From NCBI GenBank assembly GCA_913061515.1, contig CAJXSF010000001.1, positions 1 to 64,000 of the forward strand: DNA of 64,000 nt, written 5' to 3'. Positions within the stretch are counted from its first letter, which is position 1. Each line of letters begins with the position of its first letter. The DNA comes from an uncultured Gammaproteobacteria bacterium. GTDB lineage: Bacteria; Pseudomonadota; Gammaproteobacteria; Pseudomonadales; Pseudohongiellaceae. This document shows, in pieces, positions 46,039-50,926 of the stretch. A program made the position numbers and the translations under genes. A model generated the notes under the pieces. The model saw only the letters and a list, made by a program, of their open reading frames with translations. It searched no databases and was not told where the DNA came from.

Positions 46039-46776
46039 TTACTGTATTTTTTGCGGATACTCGTAGGTGATAAGCACATCTTGGGTGTTGCCTTCATCGT
46101 CAAGAAGATTGCTAATACCCTTGTACTGAATAAGGCGTTGGGTCTGCTCATCATAGGCAAGGATTAGTGGATCGACAAACCACGTTAGCACGCGTAAGAA
46201 TCCGGCAGGCCGGACGGTTAAGCATAAGGCCTCTTCGATGCTAGGCTCGCAATCATCTAGGTCGGTTTTACTTATACCAATATTGACTGTGTCCAGCCGA
46301 GCGGGCACTAAGAACTCTCCTCGCACCGTTCTCCCTGCTTGGAGTGCTTCCCAATGCTCGCGCACATAGGCGTCAAAACCGGCATCGATGACGAGGCGTT
46401 CGCTGCGCTGTATTTCGCTCGAGCGCAGCGGTTCGCCTTGGCGTTGGTAGCCGACTTCGACACCAGCGTTTGTATTCCGAGTAAAGATTTTGGTGGCGTT
46501 GCGATAATCTATTTGCTCAATGGCCGGTGTGGCTAGCGAGTCGCTGTACTCTAGTGTCTTAGCGACAATAAGCTCTTGGCTCTGGTCGACATATTCCACC
46601 CGAGCACTCACTGTCGCCTCTGGCGAGGCTCTATAGTGTAACTCGGTGTACAGTTTTTGTTTGCTACTAGCCTCGTATGCGTTTCCCTTGATCCAAGGCA
46701 GCTCTGCGTAAGCATTGGTCGCGGCAACGCAGCCGAGGCCACAAGCCAGTAATAGGGTATAGGTGCGGCGCATCAT
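46039..46776 (-). CDS. Exported protein of unknown function in the cfa operon
   Basis: 245 residues with a clear signal peptide (about 1-24, ending NAYAE). The rest is rich in beta-strand patterns and has one pair of cysteines (DCEPSIEEALCL) that could form a disulfide. I recognise no family. Its ATG overlaps the cfa stop (ATGA), so it is translated with cfa and belongs to the presumed RpoE-controlled operon. A periplasmic or lipid-binding role is only a guess. Confidence 0.7.
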   Translation of the reverse strand: MMRRTYTLLLACGLGCVAATNAYAELPWIKGNAYEASSKQKLYTELHYRASPEATVSARVEYVDQSQELIVAKTLEYSDSLATPAIEQIDYRNATKIFTRNTNAGVEVGYQRQGEPLRSSEIQRSERLVIDAGFDAYVREHWEALQAGRTVRGEFLVPARLDTVNIGISKTDLDDCEPSIEEALCLTVRPAGFLRVLTWFVDPLILAYDEQTQRLIQYKGISNLLDDEGNTQDVLITYEYPQKIQ

Positions 46777-48074
46777 AGAGAGAGTTCTGCATTCTGTGTA
46801 GTAAAAGTGGGTGTGCTGCGAAACTTAGGTTTGGCAATTAAGGTTTGGCTTGTGTGGATTACACGCTCGCTAAAACCACCTTGGCAATACGCAAGATAGT
46901 AATCCCACATGCGTAGGAATTCTCCAGTGAGACCTTGAGCAAGATATTGTTGAGTATTGGCTAAAAAACGTTTGCGCCAATGTGCAATGGTCAGCGCATA
47001 GTCTTTGGTAATATCTTCCAGACCAATGATTTGCATATCAGTATCGGTACAAACATGTTTGGCGATAACGCTGTTGCTGGGAAGGCAGCCGCCAGGGAAA
47101 ATATACTGTTGGATAAAATCGACTGATTGAGTTGCGCGTTCGTAGCGTTGATCGGAAATACAGATAGCTTGCAGTAGCATCAAGCCATTTTCTTTAAGTA
47201 AAGACGAACACTGTTGAAAATAGCTTGTATAGAATTCATGACCTACCGCTTCGATCATCTCCACCGAGACTAATTTGTCGTATTTCCCTTCTAAGTCTCG
47301 ATAGTCCTCAAGCAATAATTCGACTCGATCTTCGAGCTGTTCTTCACGTACCCGTGCCTGTGCAAATTCAAACTGTTCTTTAGATAAGGTCGTTGTTGTG
47401 ACTCGGCAACCAAAATGTTTGGCTGCGAAGATCGCCATCGAGCCCCATCCAGTGCCGATCTCTAATAAGTGATCTGTCGGTTTCAGCTGTAGTCGCTGGC
47501 AAATATGTTGCAGTTTCGTCAATGAGGCTTGATGCAATGATGTTTGCTCTGTCGGAAATATTGCAGATGAATACATCATACTAGGGTCGAGAAAACTCAT
47601 AAAAAATTCATTGCTGAGATCGTAGTGCGCAGAAATATTGCGACGTGACCCAGTGCGGCTGTTAGCGTTAAAGCGGTGGAGAGTGCGAGTGGCGATTTTC
47701 CTGAACCATGACTGCCCGCTGTCTACCCCATCAAGAATATGCAAATTTAAGACGATCACGCGGACAAGAGTTACAAGATCCTGCGATTGCCAGTGTTGCC
47801 ACATATAGGATTCACCGCAACCAATGCTGCCGTTGCGCAAGAGGTCCACATAGAAGGCCGGGCTCAAAACCTCAATGTGTGCTACAAGATCAAGATTATC
47901 TGGATCGCCAAAATGCAGAGAAACCCCTGCGTCCTCCAATATGATCTGCCCGATTTCGAGTCTGTTAAGAACATCTAATACGAATTTTTTGGCGATCCCT
48001 TCTAGCATTGCCCCGCTTGCTTTTCTACGCTTCTGCGTGATGAGTTTGCTGGGGTCTAAAACCATGGTTTTCAT
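46773..48074 (-). CDS. cfa: Cyclopropane-fatty-acyl-phospholipid synthase
   Basis: 433-residue SAM-dependent enzyme that methylenates unsaturated acyl chains of membrane phospholipids, protecting the membrane under oxidative stress. The SAM-binding motif LEIGTGWGSMAIFAA lies near residue 205, followed by TTTTLSKEQ; the SVEMIEAVGHEFY active-site block is present. It lies between DUF1365 and an exported protein and is a known RpoE-ChrR regulon member in Rhodobacter. Confidence 0.94.
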   Translation of the reverse strand: MKTMVLDPSKLITQKRRKASGAMLEGIAKKFVLDVLNRLEIGQIILEDAGVSLHFGDPDNLDLVAHIEVLSPAFYVDLLRNGSIGCGESYMWQHWQSQDLVTLVRVIVLNLHILDGVDSGQSWFRKIATRTLHRFNANSRTGSRRNISAHYDLSNEFFMSFLDPSMMYSSAIFPTEQTSLHQASLTKLQHICQRLQLKPTDHLLEIGTGWGSMAIFAAKHFGCRVTTTTLSKEQFEFAQARVREEQLEDRVELLLEDYRDLEGKYDKLVSVEMIEAVGHEFYTSYFQQCSSLLKENGLMLLQAICISDQRYERATQSVDFIQQYIFPGGCLPSNSVIAKHVCTDTDMQIIGLEDITKDYALTIAHWRKRFLANTQQYLAQGLTGEFLRMWDYYLAYCQGGFSERVIHTSQTLIAKPKFRSTPTFTTQNAELSL

Positions 48075-48090: not shown

Positions 48091-48888
48091 TCATTGTTTT
48101 CTGTTAGCCGTCTCAGGATGTTTAATGATGGGAATACGTTTGAGAAAAAGTCGCAAAGCCTGCCAATGAATGCCGAGCATAACTTTCAAAGTCATGAACG
48201 GAAAACGACGCAGTGCACTATTTAAAGTCTGTGTGCTTAACTCTGTACGACTAAGCGCGAGAGTGGCATTAAAGACTTGTGTGTTTTCATTCCAATTTTC
48301 TAAATGAATTCTTATGGATGAGTCGGGTGTATTACTTTTCCAGTGGTAGCTCATCTGCATTGGCATGAACGGTGAAACATGCATTGCCTTATTAAATTGG
48401 TGTCTTTGTAGATTATTGTTTTCTACGCAAGGAATGACATATTGGATGCGTTCTTTCCAGGGGGTGTTAGTGACCTCTGCAACAATGAAGCGCAGCTGTT
48501 CTTTCTCGTCGAAGCAGTAATAGCAACTGATAGGGTTTAAGATGTAGCCGAAATAGCGAAGATTGCACAAGAGGCGAACCGGGCCGTTGAGTTTGTCCCC
48601 AGTAGCGGCATAGATGTATTCGTGCACGGCCTGTTTTAGCGGCAGATTGTTAGGGCCAAGGAAGTCGCTTCGACGAAACTGCGCTGCATTGAAACCGCTT
48701 GCTGACCACCAGCGCGACAGCGACATTGCTGTGTCGATCTCATCGAGGTCTAAGTACATCATAAACACTTTGTACTTAAACAGATGGTTCTTGGGTAGTA
48801 GACGTTGGTGCCGAATGGTGCCCTCGAAGATAGCGCTCGCTAAATGCCTGTGAGGGGAGTCCTGTCCATGACTAAGTGTCGATGCCAT
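48091..48888 (-). CDS. DUF1365 family protein
   Basis: 265 residues from ATG 48888, which lies 13 bases after the upstream gene's stop codon; an in-frame ATG at 48927 overlaps that gene. Typical DUF1365 blocks are present: HQRLLPKNHLFKYKVFMMYLDLDE at the start and NPISCYYCFD in the middle. The family is regularly found next to cfa in ECF-controlled operons, and its function is not known. Confidence 0.85.
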   Translation of the reverse strand: MASTLSHGQDSPHRHLASAIFEGTIRHQRLLPKNHLFKYKVFMMYLDLDEIDTAMSLSRWWSASGFNAAQFRRSDFLGPNNLPLKQAVHEYIYAATGDKLNGPVRLLCNLRYFGYILNPISCYYCFDEKEQLRFIVAEVTNTPWKERIQYVIPCVENNNLQRHQFNKAMHVSPFMPMQMSYHWKSNTPDSSIRIHLENWNENTQVFNATLALSRTELSTQTLNSALRRFPFMTLKVMLGIHWQALRLFLKRIPIIKHPETANRKQ

Positions 48889-48901
48889 CGCGATGAGTGA
48901 C

Positions 48902-49357
48902 CTATGGGCGAAGACGGCTATTAACAAACTGGACCAATTTACCTAGAACAGGCACGTGTTGATAAATCATGGCACCTAGGTCGTAAAAGTCCTCTTGGTA
49001 GTAAATGCGATCGGTGAATCGGATCAAGGTGTTGCCGCGCAGTGAGATTGCTTTGCCGTTAGCGATAGAGGGGTGCTGGAAGTGCATTAGCCATGCGATG
49101 CTAGCGCAGTTCTCGCTATTGACCTCATCAGTGTATTCAAACTCTATCTTTTCGGACTTAGCGTACAAACTCTTAATATAGCTTTTAAGAGCAAGTATCC
49201 CTTGGATTTTATGAATCGGATCGTGAAACTCGATGTCTTGTGTGTATATTCGATCTAAGCGGTCAAGGTCAGTTTCTTTACCATCTTGATAGAAGCTCTT
49301 AAACTCGGCTAGAAGCGTTAGTTTGCGATTGTCAGTTAGCTGTTTGTTCTCGTTCAC
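48902..49357 (-). CDS. NTF2/SnoaL-like protein, first gene of the cfa operon
   Basis: 151-residue cone-barrel protein of the nuclear transport factor 2-like type: the early YTQDIEFHDPIHKIQG segment and a central AWLMHFQHPS strand fit. Homologues occur with DUF1365 and cfa in RpoE-ChrR clusters. It is the promoter-proximal gene, with an ECF-type promoter directly upstream. No catalytic role can be assigned. Confidence 0.8.
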   Translation of the reverse strand: MNENKQLTDNRKLTLLAEFKSFYQDGKETDLDRLDRIYTQDIEFHDPIHKIQGILALKSYIKSLYAKSEKIEFEYTDEVNSENCASIAWLMHFQHPSIANGKAISLRGNTLIRFTDRIYYQEDFYDLGAMIYQHVPVLGKLVQFVNSRLRP

Positions 49358-49396: not shown

Positions 49397-49426
49397 TGAT
49401 TACGACTGCAATAATTGAATAGATCA
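49397..49426 (-). promoter_or_regulatory. ECF (RpoE/ChrR-type) promoter of the cfa operon
   Basis: On the minus strand, TGATCT (49421-49426) is followed by 18 bases and TAATCA (49397-49402), 40 bases before the NTF2-like ATG. TGATC at -35 is the hallmark of ECF11-type RpoE promoters in Rhodobacter and relatives. The mirror promoter for rpoE has the same -35 box and spacing. Confidence 0.75.
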
Positions 49427-49472
49427 GGATAGGCAGTATTAAGTCCTATTAGATGATGTCCTCATTTTAGTT

Positions 49473-49502
49473 TGATCTAGATGTATTGGGCATTCGTATA
49501 GT
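49473..49502 (+). promoter_or_regulatory. ECF (RpoE/ChrR-type) autoregulatory promoter of rpoE-chrR
   Basis: TGATCT (49473-49478), 18 bases, TATAGT (49497-49502). The identical -35 hexamer and spacing to the divergent cfa promoter indicate one sigma factor reads both and thus autoregulates. Confidence 0.75.
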
Positions 49503-49519: not shown

Positions 49520-49639
49520 ATGAACGGGCAAGATGTAAACGCTAATCTACGCACGGCAAAGAAGAACAAAGGGATAACGTGGGAACCAAAGACGAAACTA
49601 ATGGTTTTAAGCAAGGTCTGCCTAAGGGGGCTGCATTGA
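49520..49639 (+). CDS. Possible leader ORF overlapping the rpoE start
   Basis: A 39-codon ORF begins at ATG 49520, about 11 bases after the predicted transcript start, with GGAAG just upstream. It ends at TGA 49637-49639, 60 bases inside the sigma gene in another frame. It has a better ribosome site than the sigma GTG. It may be a leader peptide or only a chance frame. Confidence 0.3.
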   Translation: MNGQDVNANLRTAKKNKGITWEPKTKLMVLSKVCLRGLH

Positions 49640-50190
49640 CAGCCGATCCGTGGGAGGAAGCACTGCACAAGGTGGCCGAGTCTGCGGACAGGGCTGCATT
49701 TCAGTTGTTATTTGAGCATTTTGCTCCGCAGATCAAGGCCTTTTTGATGAAAGGGATGTCCTCCTACGCAGATCGCAGCCAAGCGGAAGAGATGACCCAA
49801 GAAGTGATGATCAAAGTCTGGAACAAAGCCGCTTCGTTCAATGCGGCTAAGGCTAGTGTCAACACATGGATATTTACGATCGCCCGAAATACCCGAATCG
49901 ATTTTATTCGGCGAAACACCCGAGCTGAGCGAAAAATAGAGATAGAAGACATCTGGCATGAAGCGGATTCTCCAGAGCCAATCGTGGATTTTCAACAGCG
50001 CCGCGTTGAGGTTGAAATCCGCAATGCGATGTCGACTTTGCCAGCCGAACAAGCATTAGTGTTGGAAAAGGCATTTATGGAAAGCAAATCCCATAATGAG
50101 ATAGCCGAAGAATTGGACTTGCCACTTGGAACGGTTAAATCCCGTATTCGCTTGGCCTTGAATAAACTCCAGATACTCATAGATCGCTAA
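49579..50190 (+). CDS. rpoE: ECF sigma factor RpoE, ChrR-partner type
   Basis: 203 residues. Region 2 reads FQLLFEHFAPQIKAFLMKG, then EEMTQEVMIKVWNKA and TWIFTIARNTRIDFIRR; region 4 has the HNEIAEELDLPLGTVKSRI helix-turn-helix. The type pairs with zinc anti-sigma ChrR and responds to singlet oxygen and organic peroxides. The start is GTG 49579; an in-frame stop at 49543 limits the choice, and no good ribosome site is seen, which may mean coupling to the leader ORF. chrR follows after 16 bases. Confidence 0.9.
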   Translation: MGTKDETNGFKQGLPKGAALTADPWEEALHKVAESADRAAFQLLFEHFAPQIKAFLMKGMSSYADRSQAEEMTQEVMIKVWNKAASFNAAKASVNTWIFTIARNTRIDFIRRNTRAERKIEIEDIWHEADSPEPIVDFQQRRVEVEIRNAMSTLPAEQALVLEKAFMESKSHNEIAEELDLPLGTVKSRIRLALNKLQILIDR

Positions 50191-50206: not shown

Positions 50207-50926
50207 ATGATTTCATATCACCCCGATTCAAGATTTTTGACAGACTTCGCTAGTGCGAACCTGCCGATGGCGCAAGCAATGTGTGTGTCAGCGCATCTTG
50301 AGTTTTGTGGCAAGTGCCGAGCCCATGTGCATCAATTGAAAGAGATTGGTGGCCATTTGCTCTCACAGATCCCGCCTGTTGCAGTAGAGGCCGGTAGTTT
50401 TGAACAATTAATGAGTAAGATCGCAAGCCCACAGCCGCTACCAACAGCGCCTAGCGCCCAGGCGCACAATGCACTGACCAGCATAGCGCCTAAGTCAGGT
50501 AAAGAGACCTATTTGCCTCGCTCAGTGCGCCGGCTTTCCAACGGTAGCTTGCAGAATTTAGGGTGGGCTCAATTTGGCAAAGCCTTGCGTATAGCCCCAT
50601 TACCCATTGCTGGAGAGACGCTCGAGACTTCTATTTACGATATTAAGGCGGGCGGACAAATGCCTGAGCATGAGCATCGTGGGGAAGAAATCACCGTGTT
50701 GCTCAAGGGTAGTTTCTCAGATGCGGACGGAACTTACTCGCGAGGAGATTTTGTCGTTCGAAATGCTGGTGAGGCGCATCAACCGACAGCTACTCAAGAT
50801 ACCGATTGTATATGCTTAGTATGCCTTGAGAGGCCAGTTCGGCCGCGAGGGTGGTTCTATCGACTGCTCGAGCCCTATATTCAATATCGACTTCACTCGC
50901 TAAAGCGCAATGGGGCAACTCACTAA
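50207..50926 (+). CDS. chrR: Zinc-binding anti-sigma factor ChrR
   Basis: 239 residues. The N-terminal anti-sigma domain has zinc ligands H5, H30, C34 and C37, each one residue earlier than the four in Rhodobacter ChrR. The C-terminal cupin domain has a MPEHEHRGEEITVLLKG motif and GEAHQP, which bind a second zinc and are needed for the singlet-oxygen response. It would hold RpoE inactive in the cytoplasm until photo-oxidative stress releases it. Confidence 0.93.
   Translation: MISYHPDSRFLTDFASANLPMAQAMCVSAHLEFCGKCRAHVHQLKEIGGHLLSQIPPVAVEAGSFEQLMSKIASPQPLPTAPSAQAHNALTSIAPKSGKETYLPRSVRRLSNGSLQNLGWAQFGKALRIAPLPIAGETLETSIYDIKAGGQMPEHEHRGEEITVLLKGSFSDADGTYSRGDFVVRNAGEAHQPTATQDTDCICLVCLERPVRPRGWFYRLLEPYIQYRLHSLKRNGATH

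Follow-up and report, generated by a model that had tools for sequence, protein, structure and literature searches.

Probable divergent ECF11-type promoters of a slimmed-down, partly dispersed RpoE-ChrR regulon in an uncultured gammaproteobacterium

The intergenic region between rpoE and a divergent SnoaL-like gene, located in the 64,000-nucleotide stretch of DNA analysed here (the window), very probably (roughly 0.93) carries two divergent ECF11-type (sigmaE/RpoE) promoters of the form TGATCY-N16-CGTAW. Both would be controlled by ChrR, one serving rpoE-chrR and the other a SnoaL-UfaO-UfaM-orf245 operon, with ufaD and a photolyase gene as further likely targets. The locus is a slimmed-down, partly dispersed version of the known core RpoE-ChrR oxidative-stress regulon, in which the scattering of ufaD is unusual. 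The promoter facing rpoE-chrR lies on the forward strand at 49473-49498 (TGATCTAGATGTATTGGGCATTCGTA) and is composed of the -35 element TGATCT (49473-49478), a 16-base spacer and the -10 core CGTA (49495-49498); that of the divergent operon lies on the reverse strand at 49426-49401 (TGATCTATTCAATTATTGCAGTCGTA), with TGATCT at 49426-49421, a 16-base spacer and CGTA at 49404-49401. Transcription from both sites is inferred.

Judged by their sequences, the sigma factor and its partner match the co-crystallised sigmaE-ChrR pair of Rhodobacter sphaeroides. The ECF sigma factor gene rpoE (49579..50190, forward strand, GTG start) encodes the Pfam domains Sigma70_r2 and r4_2 and is a homologue of R. 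sphaeroides sigmaE; when compared to the PDB, RpoE itself (2q1z_A) was the best of 16 matches (E 1.9e-39, the next being 1.5e-14). The adjacent chrR (50207..50926, forward strand) encodes a zinc-binding anti-sigma factor with a cupin-like domain (PF12973), recognised by TIGR02451 at 162.1 bits against a cut-off of 124.5 and by a structure match to ChrR (2z2s_B, E 4.4e-27). In the alignment to 2z2s_B, H5, H30, C34 and C37 of the N-terminal zinc site align with H6, H31, C35 and C38 of the R. sphaeroides protein, and H155, H157, E161 and H191 of the cupin-like domain with H141, H143, E147 and H177, so that all eight zinc ligands named in PMC6852236 are kept. A short frame of 39 codons (49520-49639), opening with ATG and equipped with a good ribosome-binding site, overlaps the start of rpoE in a different reading frame. 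It was considered as a conserved leader peptide and rejected, as among 11 aligned loci it was found only in the window and in its nearest relative, L072.

By homology, ChrR would keep RpoE inactive until an oxidative signal, singlet oxygen or organic hydroperoxides, inactivates it. Free RpoE would then transcribe rpoE-chrR, in a positive feedback, together with the divergent operon; ufaD and the photolyase gene, with the weaker -35 elements AAATCC and TAATCT, respectively, would be further likely targets. As output one would expect DNA repair together with membrane lipids of the methylated and furan types. Singlet oxygen as the inducing signal is something we infer by homology only, and it is possible, if on balance unlikely, that the promoters are real and RpoE-dependent while the signal is mainly another one, such as superoxide, organic hydroperoxide, nitrosative or metal stress. 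In Stenotrophomonas maltophilia the counterpart system is described as affecting superoxide tolerance and not singlet-oxygen tolerance (PMC11832516), and the cupin ligands of ChrR also take part in the organic hydroperoxide response (PMC6852236). Against this stand the response of R. sphaeroides to singlet oxygen and of Caulobacter to both singlet oxygen and organic hydroperoxides (PMC6852236), the testing of the Pseudomonas syringae promoters with singlet oxygen and tBOOH (PMC5507510), and the likely membership of a photolyase in the present regulon.

An initial annotation had described the two sites as TGATCT, an 18-base spacer and TA, which is correct to the letter and in position at both. 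The more informative form is TGATCT-N16-CGTA, a spacing inside the published consensus: the ChIP-seq consensus for RpoE (ECF11) of P. syringae is TGATCC-N16-CGTA (PMC5507510), in Shewanella the starts mapped for rpoE2 and pgpD follow TGATCC-N16-CGTAWT (PMC4336711), and the Vibrio cholerae promoter is given as TGATC-N16..18-CGTAW (PMC5241685). As a general element TGATCT-N18-TA is to be replaced by TGATCY-N16-CGTAW, with TGATCC as the usual -35 sequence, although the annotated form is indeed present here. Variation in the -35 element is tolerated in P. syringae, where TGATCt (102-fold), TaATCt of katG (41-fold) and aGATCC of phrB (14-fold) all work (PMC5507510).

Conservation of the two elements was examined in loci from several sources: 194 genomes of the order searched for ChrR (100 matching, 30 of these taken as loci), GTDB contigs scanned for RpoE (12 loci), selected wider stretches, and later genus and family searches. 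This gave 112 loci with an rpoE match, of which one was dropped as too short and 38 as duplicates, leaving 73. TGATCY-N16-CGTA was present toward rpoE in 59, in the divergent orientation in 48, and in both in 42. Six of the 73 had a 17-base spacer toward rpoE, making 64 with N16 or N17 and nine with neither; 25 were without a divergent N16 site. No other spacing from 12 to 20 occurred toward rpoE, and divergent sites off N16 numbered 0-1 per spacing. Among the 23 closest loci, those with at least 60% rpoE identity, the N16 element was found toward rpoE in 22 and divergently in 21, and in the remaining 50 in 37 and 27, respectively. The sixth -35 base was C in 49 of the 59 rpoE-side sites and in 35 of the 48 divergent ones; T on both sides was seen in only four of the 42, namely the window plus its three closest relatives, so that TGATCT is a lineage trait. 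This conservation of sequence, spacing and orientation, together with the P. syringae consensus and the mapped Shewanella starts, bears out the earlier designation of the sites as ECF promoters and assigns them to the RpoE-ChrR, ECF11 type. The proposal that rpoE-chrR and the cfa operon form a joint regulon is supported by the same conservation and by S. maltophilia, in which a divergent cfa cluster is sigmaE-dependent and 165- to 697-fold higher without ChrR (PMC11832516).

Since two inverted copies share one intergenic region, they could in principle constitute a single palindromic operator of a dimeric regulator and not two promoters. We consider this very improbable: the gap between the two -35 elements takes no fixed value, ranging from 2 to 179 bases in the 42 loci while each element stays with its own gene, and this variability argues against a single dimer operator; furthermore, each half retains the -35/-10 spacing of an ECF promoter, and before phr and ufaD the element occurs singly.

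Counting within one genome was not informative. The window contains six matches to TGATCT-N17..19-TA, as compared to 5.27 expected, and in the 3.23-Mb genome TGATC-N16..18-CGTA yielded 60 matches versus 59 for the reversed pattern. The genome scan with plain TGATCT-N18-TA that had been proposed is consequently of no use, the loose pattern matching in the window about as often as expected by chance and the looser TGATC-N16..18-CGTA staying at background genome-wide. The pattern TGATCT-N17..19-CGTA was tried and discarded; it has the wrong spacing, misses the window sites and returned background only (13 matches, 19 when reversed). Exact-spacing sites numbered 25 in the genome (14 with one base less, 21 with one more), and only three, among them the window pair, are located outside ORFs of at least 70 aa. 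That the window elements arose by chance in intergenic DNA rich in A and T, as the background-level counts of the short pattern in window and genome might suggest, has a probability close to nil in view of the exact-spacing conservation over the 73 loci, against 0.055 matches expected from mononucleotide shuffles; the pair is therefore far beyond chance, though counting alone does not place it there.

The third exact-spacing site outside ORFs, TGATCC-N16-CGTAAT at C46:6522-6547 (L095:1501-1526), follows an ORF named by eye as cytochrome b561-like, with a terminator-like repeat approximately 40 bases downstream. No gene start of an ORF of at least 70 aa was present within 300 bases, and a search of Rfam and for tRNA gave no match. 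The site is probably a chance occurrence; it could also be the promoter of an RpoE-driven small RNA.

The exact spacing also served to examine genes outside the locus. The suggestion that phrB belongs to the regulon was supported by an element before the photolyase gene in the two nearest genera, where 20 of 22 genomes have it. In this survey, which covered 30 of the 51 matching genomes, NNNTCY-N16-CGTA was found in 11 of 12 members of the genus, nine of 10 of the sister genus and two of eight of a third genus; other spacings on that strand occurred 0-1 times in each group. One of the genus's 11, L234, has a poor -35 element (ACATCC). In the genome under study the photolyase gene (C15:24683) is preceded by TAATCT-N16-CGTATA (C15:24608-24633). 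Its -35 element, exact in most relatives, is weakened here, as is the AAATCC of ufaD, while the ufaO-ufaM operon has an exact TGATCT; TAATCT is of the same type as the katG -35 element of P. syringae. A perfect TGATCC-N16-CGTATA precedes the photolyase gene in two genomes of the same genus, G242 and G217 (L227 and L230), in which no ChrR, UfaD or close RpoE was found (best RpoE matches of 25-35% identity, E ~1e-13 or weaker). The two are counted as one lineage because their phr stretches are nearly identical. Their element is either a relict or read by another sigma factor.

The divergent operon consists of four genes on the reverse strand: a SnoaL-like protein (48902..49357, PF12680); a DUF1365 protein homologous to UfaO (48091..48927, PF07103, E 1.2e-81); a CFA-type SAM methyltransferase, probably UfaM (46773..48074, PF02353); and orf245, an exported protein with a signal peptide recognised by eye (46039..46776). 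The methyltransferase is the sole strong CMAS match in the genome and scores 280.7 bits against the cyclopropane synthase equivalog, below the cut-off of 400. For the gene annotated as cfa, ufaM, of the furan-fatty-acid pathway, is probably the more apt name. In R. sphaeroides, UfaM, UfaD and UfaO produce methylated furan fatty acids, DUF1365 being found in UfaO, which acts in the oxygenation step of furan-ring formation (PMC7380195). With UfaM and UfaO homologues in the window and a UfaD homologue at C52:9599-10843, the Ufa set is complete, the three names being given from protein family and gene order in relatives and not from alignment with the R. sphaeroides proteins. The lipid product of the operon is a putative one.

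No Pfam match above its cut-off was obtained for orf245. Its AlphaFold model (mean pLDDT 84.9) has a predicted LolA/DUF1849-like beta fold; Foldseek scores were weak, and in a re-ranked fold comparison the DUF1849 structure 6ntr_C came first with Z 11.4, ahead of an axonemal chain (11.0) and LolA chains (~5 to 8). That the protein binds lipids in the periplasm is a guess. The lipid cluster of S. maltophilia also includes a periplasmic "lipocalin family" gene (PMC11832516).

In the mapped relatives, the usual order-level divergent operon is SnoaL-SDR-UfaD-DUF1365 (UfaO)-CFA (UfaM)-DUF2878-orf245, with single genes or the entire operon absent in the exceptions; UfaD, FAD amine-oxidase-like, was assigned by position and PF01593. 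The window operon is without SDR, UfaD and DUF2878. Loss of UfaD was the first idea, and it was rejected when a gene whose product is 52% identical to the order-level UfaD was located on contig C52 (C52:9599-10843). In this lineage ufaD has thus moved out of the operon to a separate contig, a move for which no earlier report was found in the open-licence papers searched. Over 59 genomes of the family, ChrR and UfaD were both present in 44 and both absent in eight, with ChrR alone in four and UfaD alone in three (Fisher p 3e-5, kinship ignored).

Among 47 genomes with a UfaD match, 19 moved ufaD genes were examined. L163 and L165 were excluded as their ufaD lies within a second SDR-ufaD-DUF1365-CFA cluster, and L172 and L173 as theirs adjoins rpoE. 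NNNTCY-N16-CGTA was present within 250 bases upstream in 18 of the 19, six with an exact TGATC; the one gene without the element is that of L203. Spacings of 11-15 and 17-21 gave 0-1 matches on that strand. The element in the genome under study is AAATCC-N16-CGTATT (C52:10925-10900), with two mismatches in the -35. Its CGTA lies inside a terminator-like hairpin that trails the upstream acyl-CoA-dehydrogenase-like gene (L157, C52:10843-10925). Because of the AAATCC -35 element and the position of CGTA within this hairpin, the ufaD promoter may be weak or dead.

Gene loss from the operon varies within the genus. SDR and DUF2878 are both kept in G211; SDR is lost in G202, and both are lost in G196, G206, G230 and the window. 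Only SnoaL and orf245 remain at the divergent position in G226, G234, G246 and G247; no operon genes were present in the stretch of G222 examined, and the G238 contig ends too early to judge. G226 and G234 (L163, L165), in which the rpoE-linked operon is reduced to SnoaL-orf245, carry the second SDR-ufaD-DUF1365-CFA cluster away from rpoE. No exact RpoE element was found before this cluster, which looks like a replacement of the furan genes.

One tentative reading, to which we give somewhat less than even odds, is that the furan-lipid operon is being dismantled in the genus and its sister while the regulon persists: ufaD would have moved, its kept or regained RpoE promoter now decaying, SDR and DUF2878 would have gone step by step, and SnoaL and orf245 would be all that the divergent promoter drives in four genomes. 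The stepwise loss points to these two genes as the most persistent output of that promoter. Were this reading true, SnoaL and the LolA-like orf245 would form a separate core output of RpoE-ChrR and not be helpers of furan synthesis, perhaps binding or carrying oxidised periplasmic lipids. Their persistence offers a testable lead on roles of the RpoE-ChrR response other than furan lipids.

Taken together, these results extend the RpoE-ChrR regulon and its 16-base promoter rule to a gammaproteobacterial lineage known here mostly from metagenome-assembled genomes, and the N16 rule can be used for tracking genes that have left the operon, such as ufaD and phr. With the sigmaE-ChrR (ECF11) core regulon of R. 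sphaeroides the locus shares rpoE-chrR, the zinc ligands, the promoter type and, as likely targets, ufaM, ufaO, ufaD and a photolyase gene, but there ufaD and ufaO lie together (RSP1091-1090) and ufaM apart (RSP2144), whereas here ufaO and ufaM are together and ufaD apart (PMC6852236). The PSPTO_1043/1042 regulon of P. syringae resembles it in promoter consensus, in autoregulation (predicted for the window), in a phrB-cfa locus and in probable tolerance of -35 variants; however, phrB-ufaD-ufaO-cfa form one locus away from rpoE in that organism (PMC5507510), while the present lipid operon sits divergently next to rpoE, with phr and ufaD separate. Shewanella oneidensis rpoE2-chrR has an element of the same type, TGATCC-N16-CGTATT, with a mapped start and a second RpoE2 promoter before its neighbour SO_1987, although this is a Lon-domain gene, and cfa and phrB are located elsewhere (PMC4336711). 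S. maltophilia, with rpoEc-chrR-chrA and smlt2375-2367, has a lipid-modification cluster that is divergent from rpoE-chrR, as here, and RpoE-dependent, as is predicted here, but it is one of nine genes that include a desaturase, an FAD oxidoreductase and two CFA synthases, as compared to the four genes, none for an FAD oxidoreductase, of the operon described here (PMC11832516).
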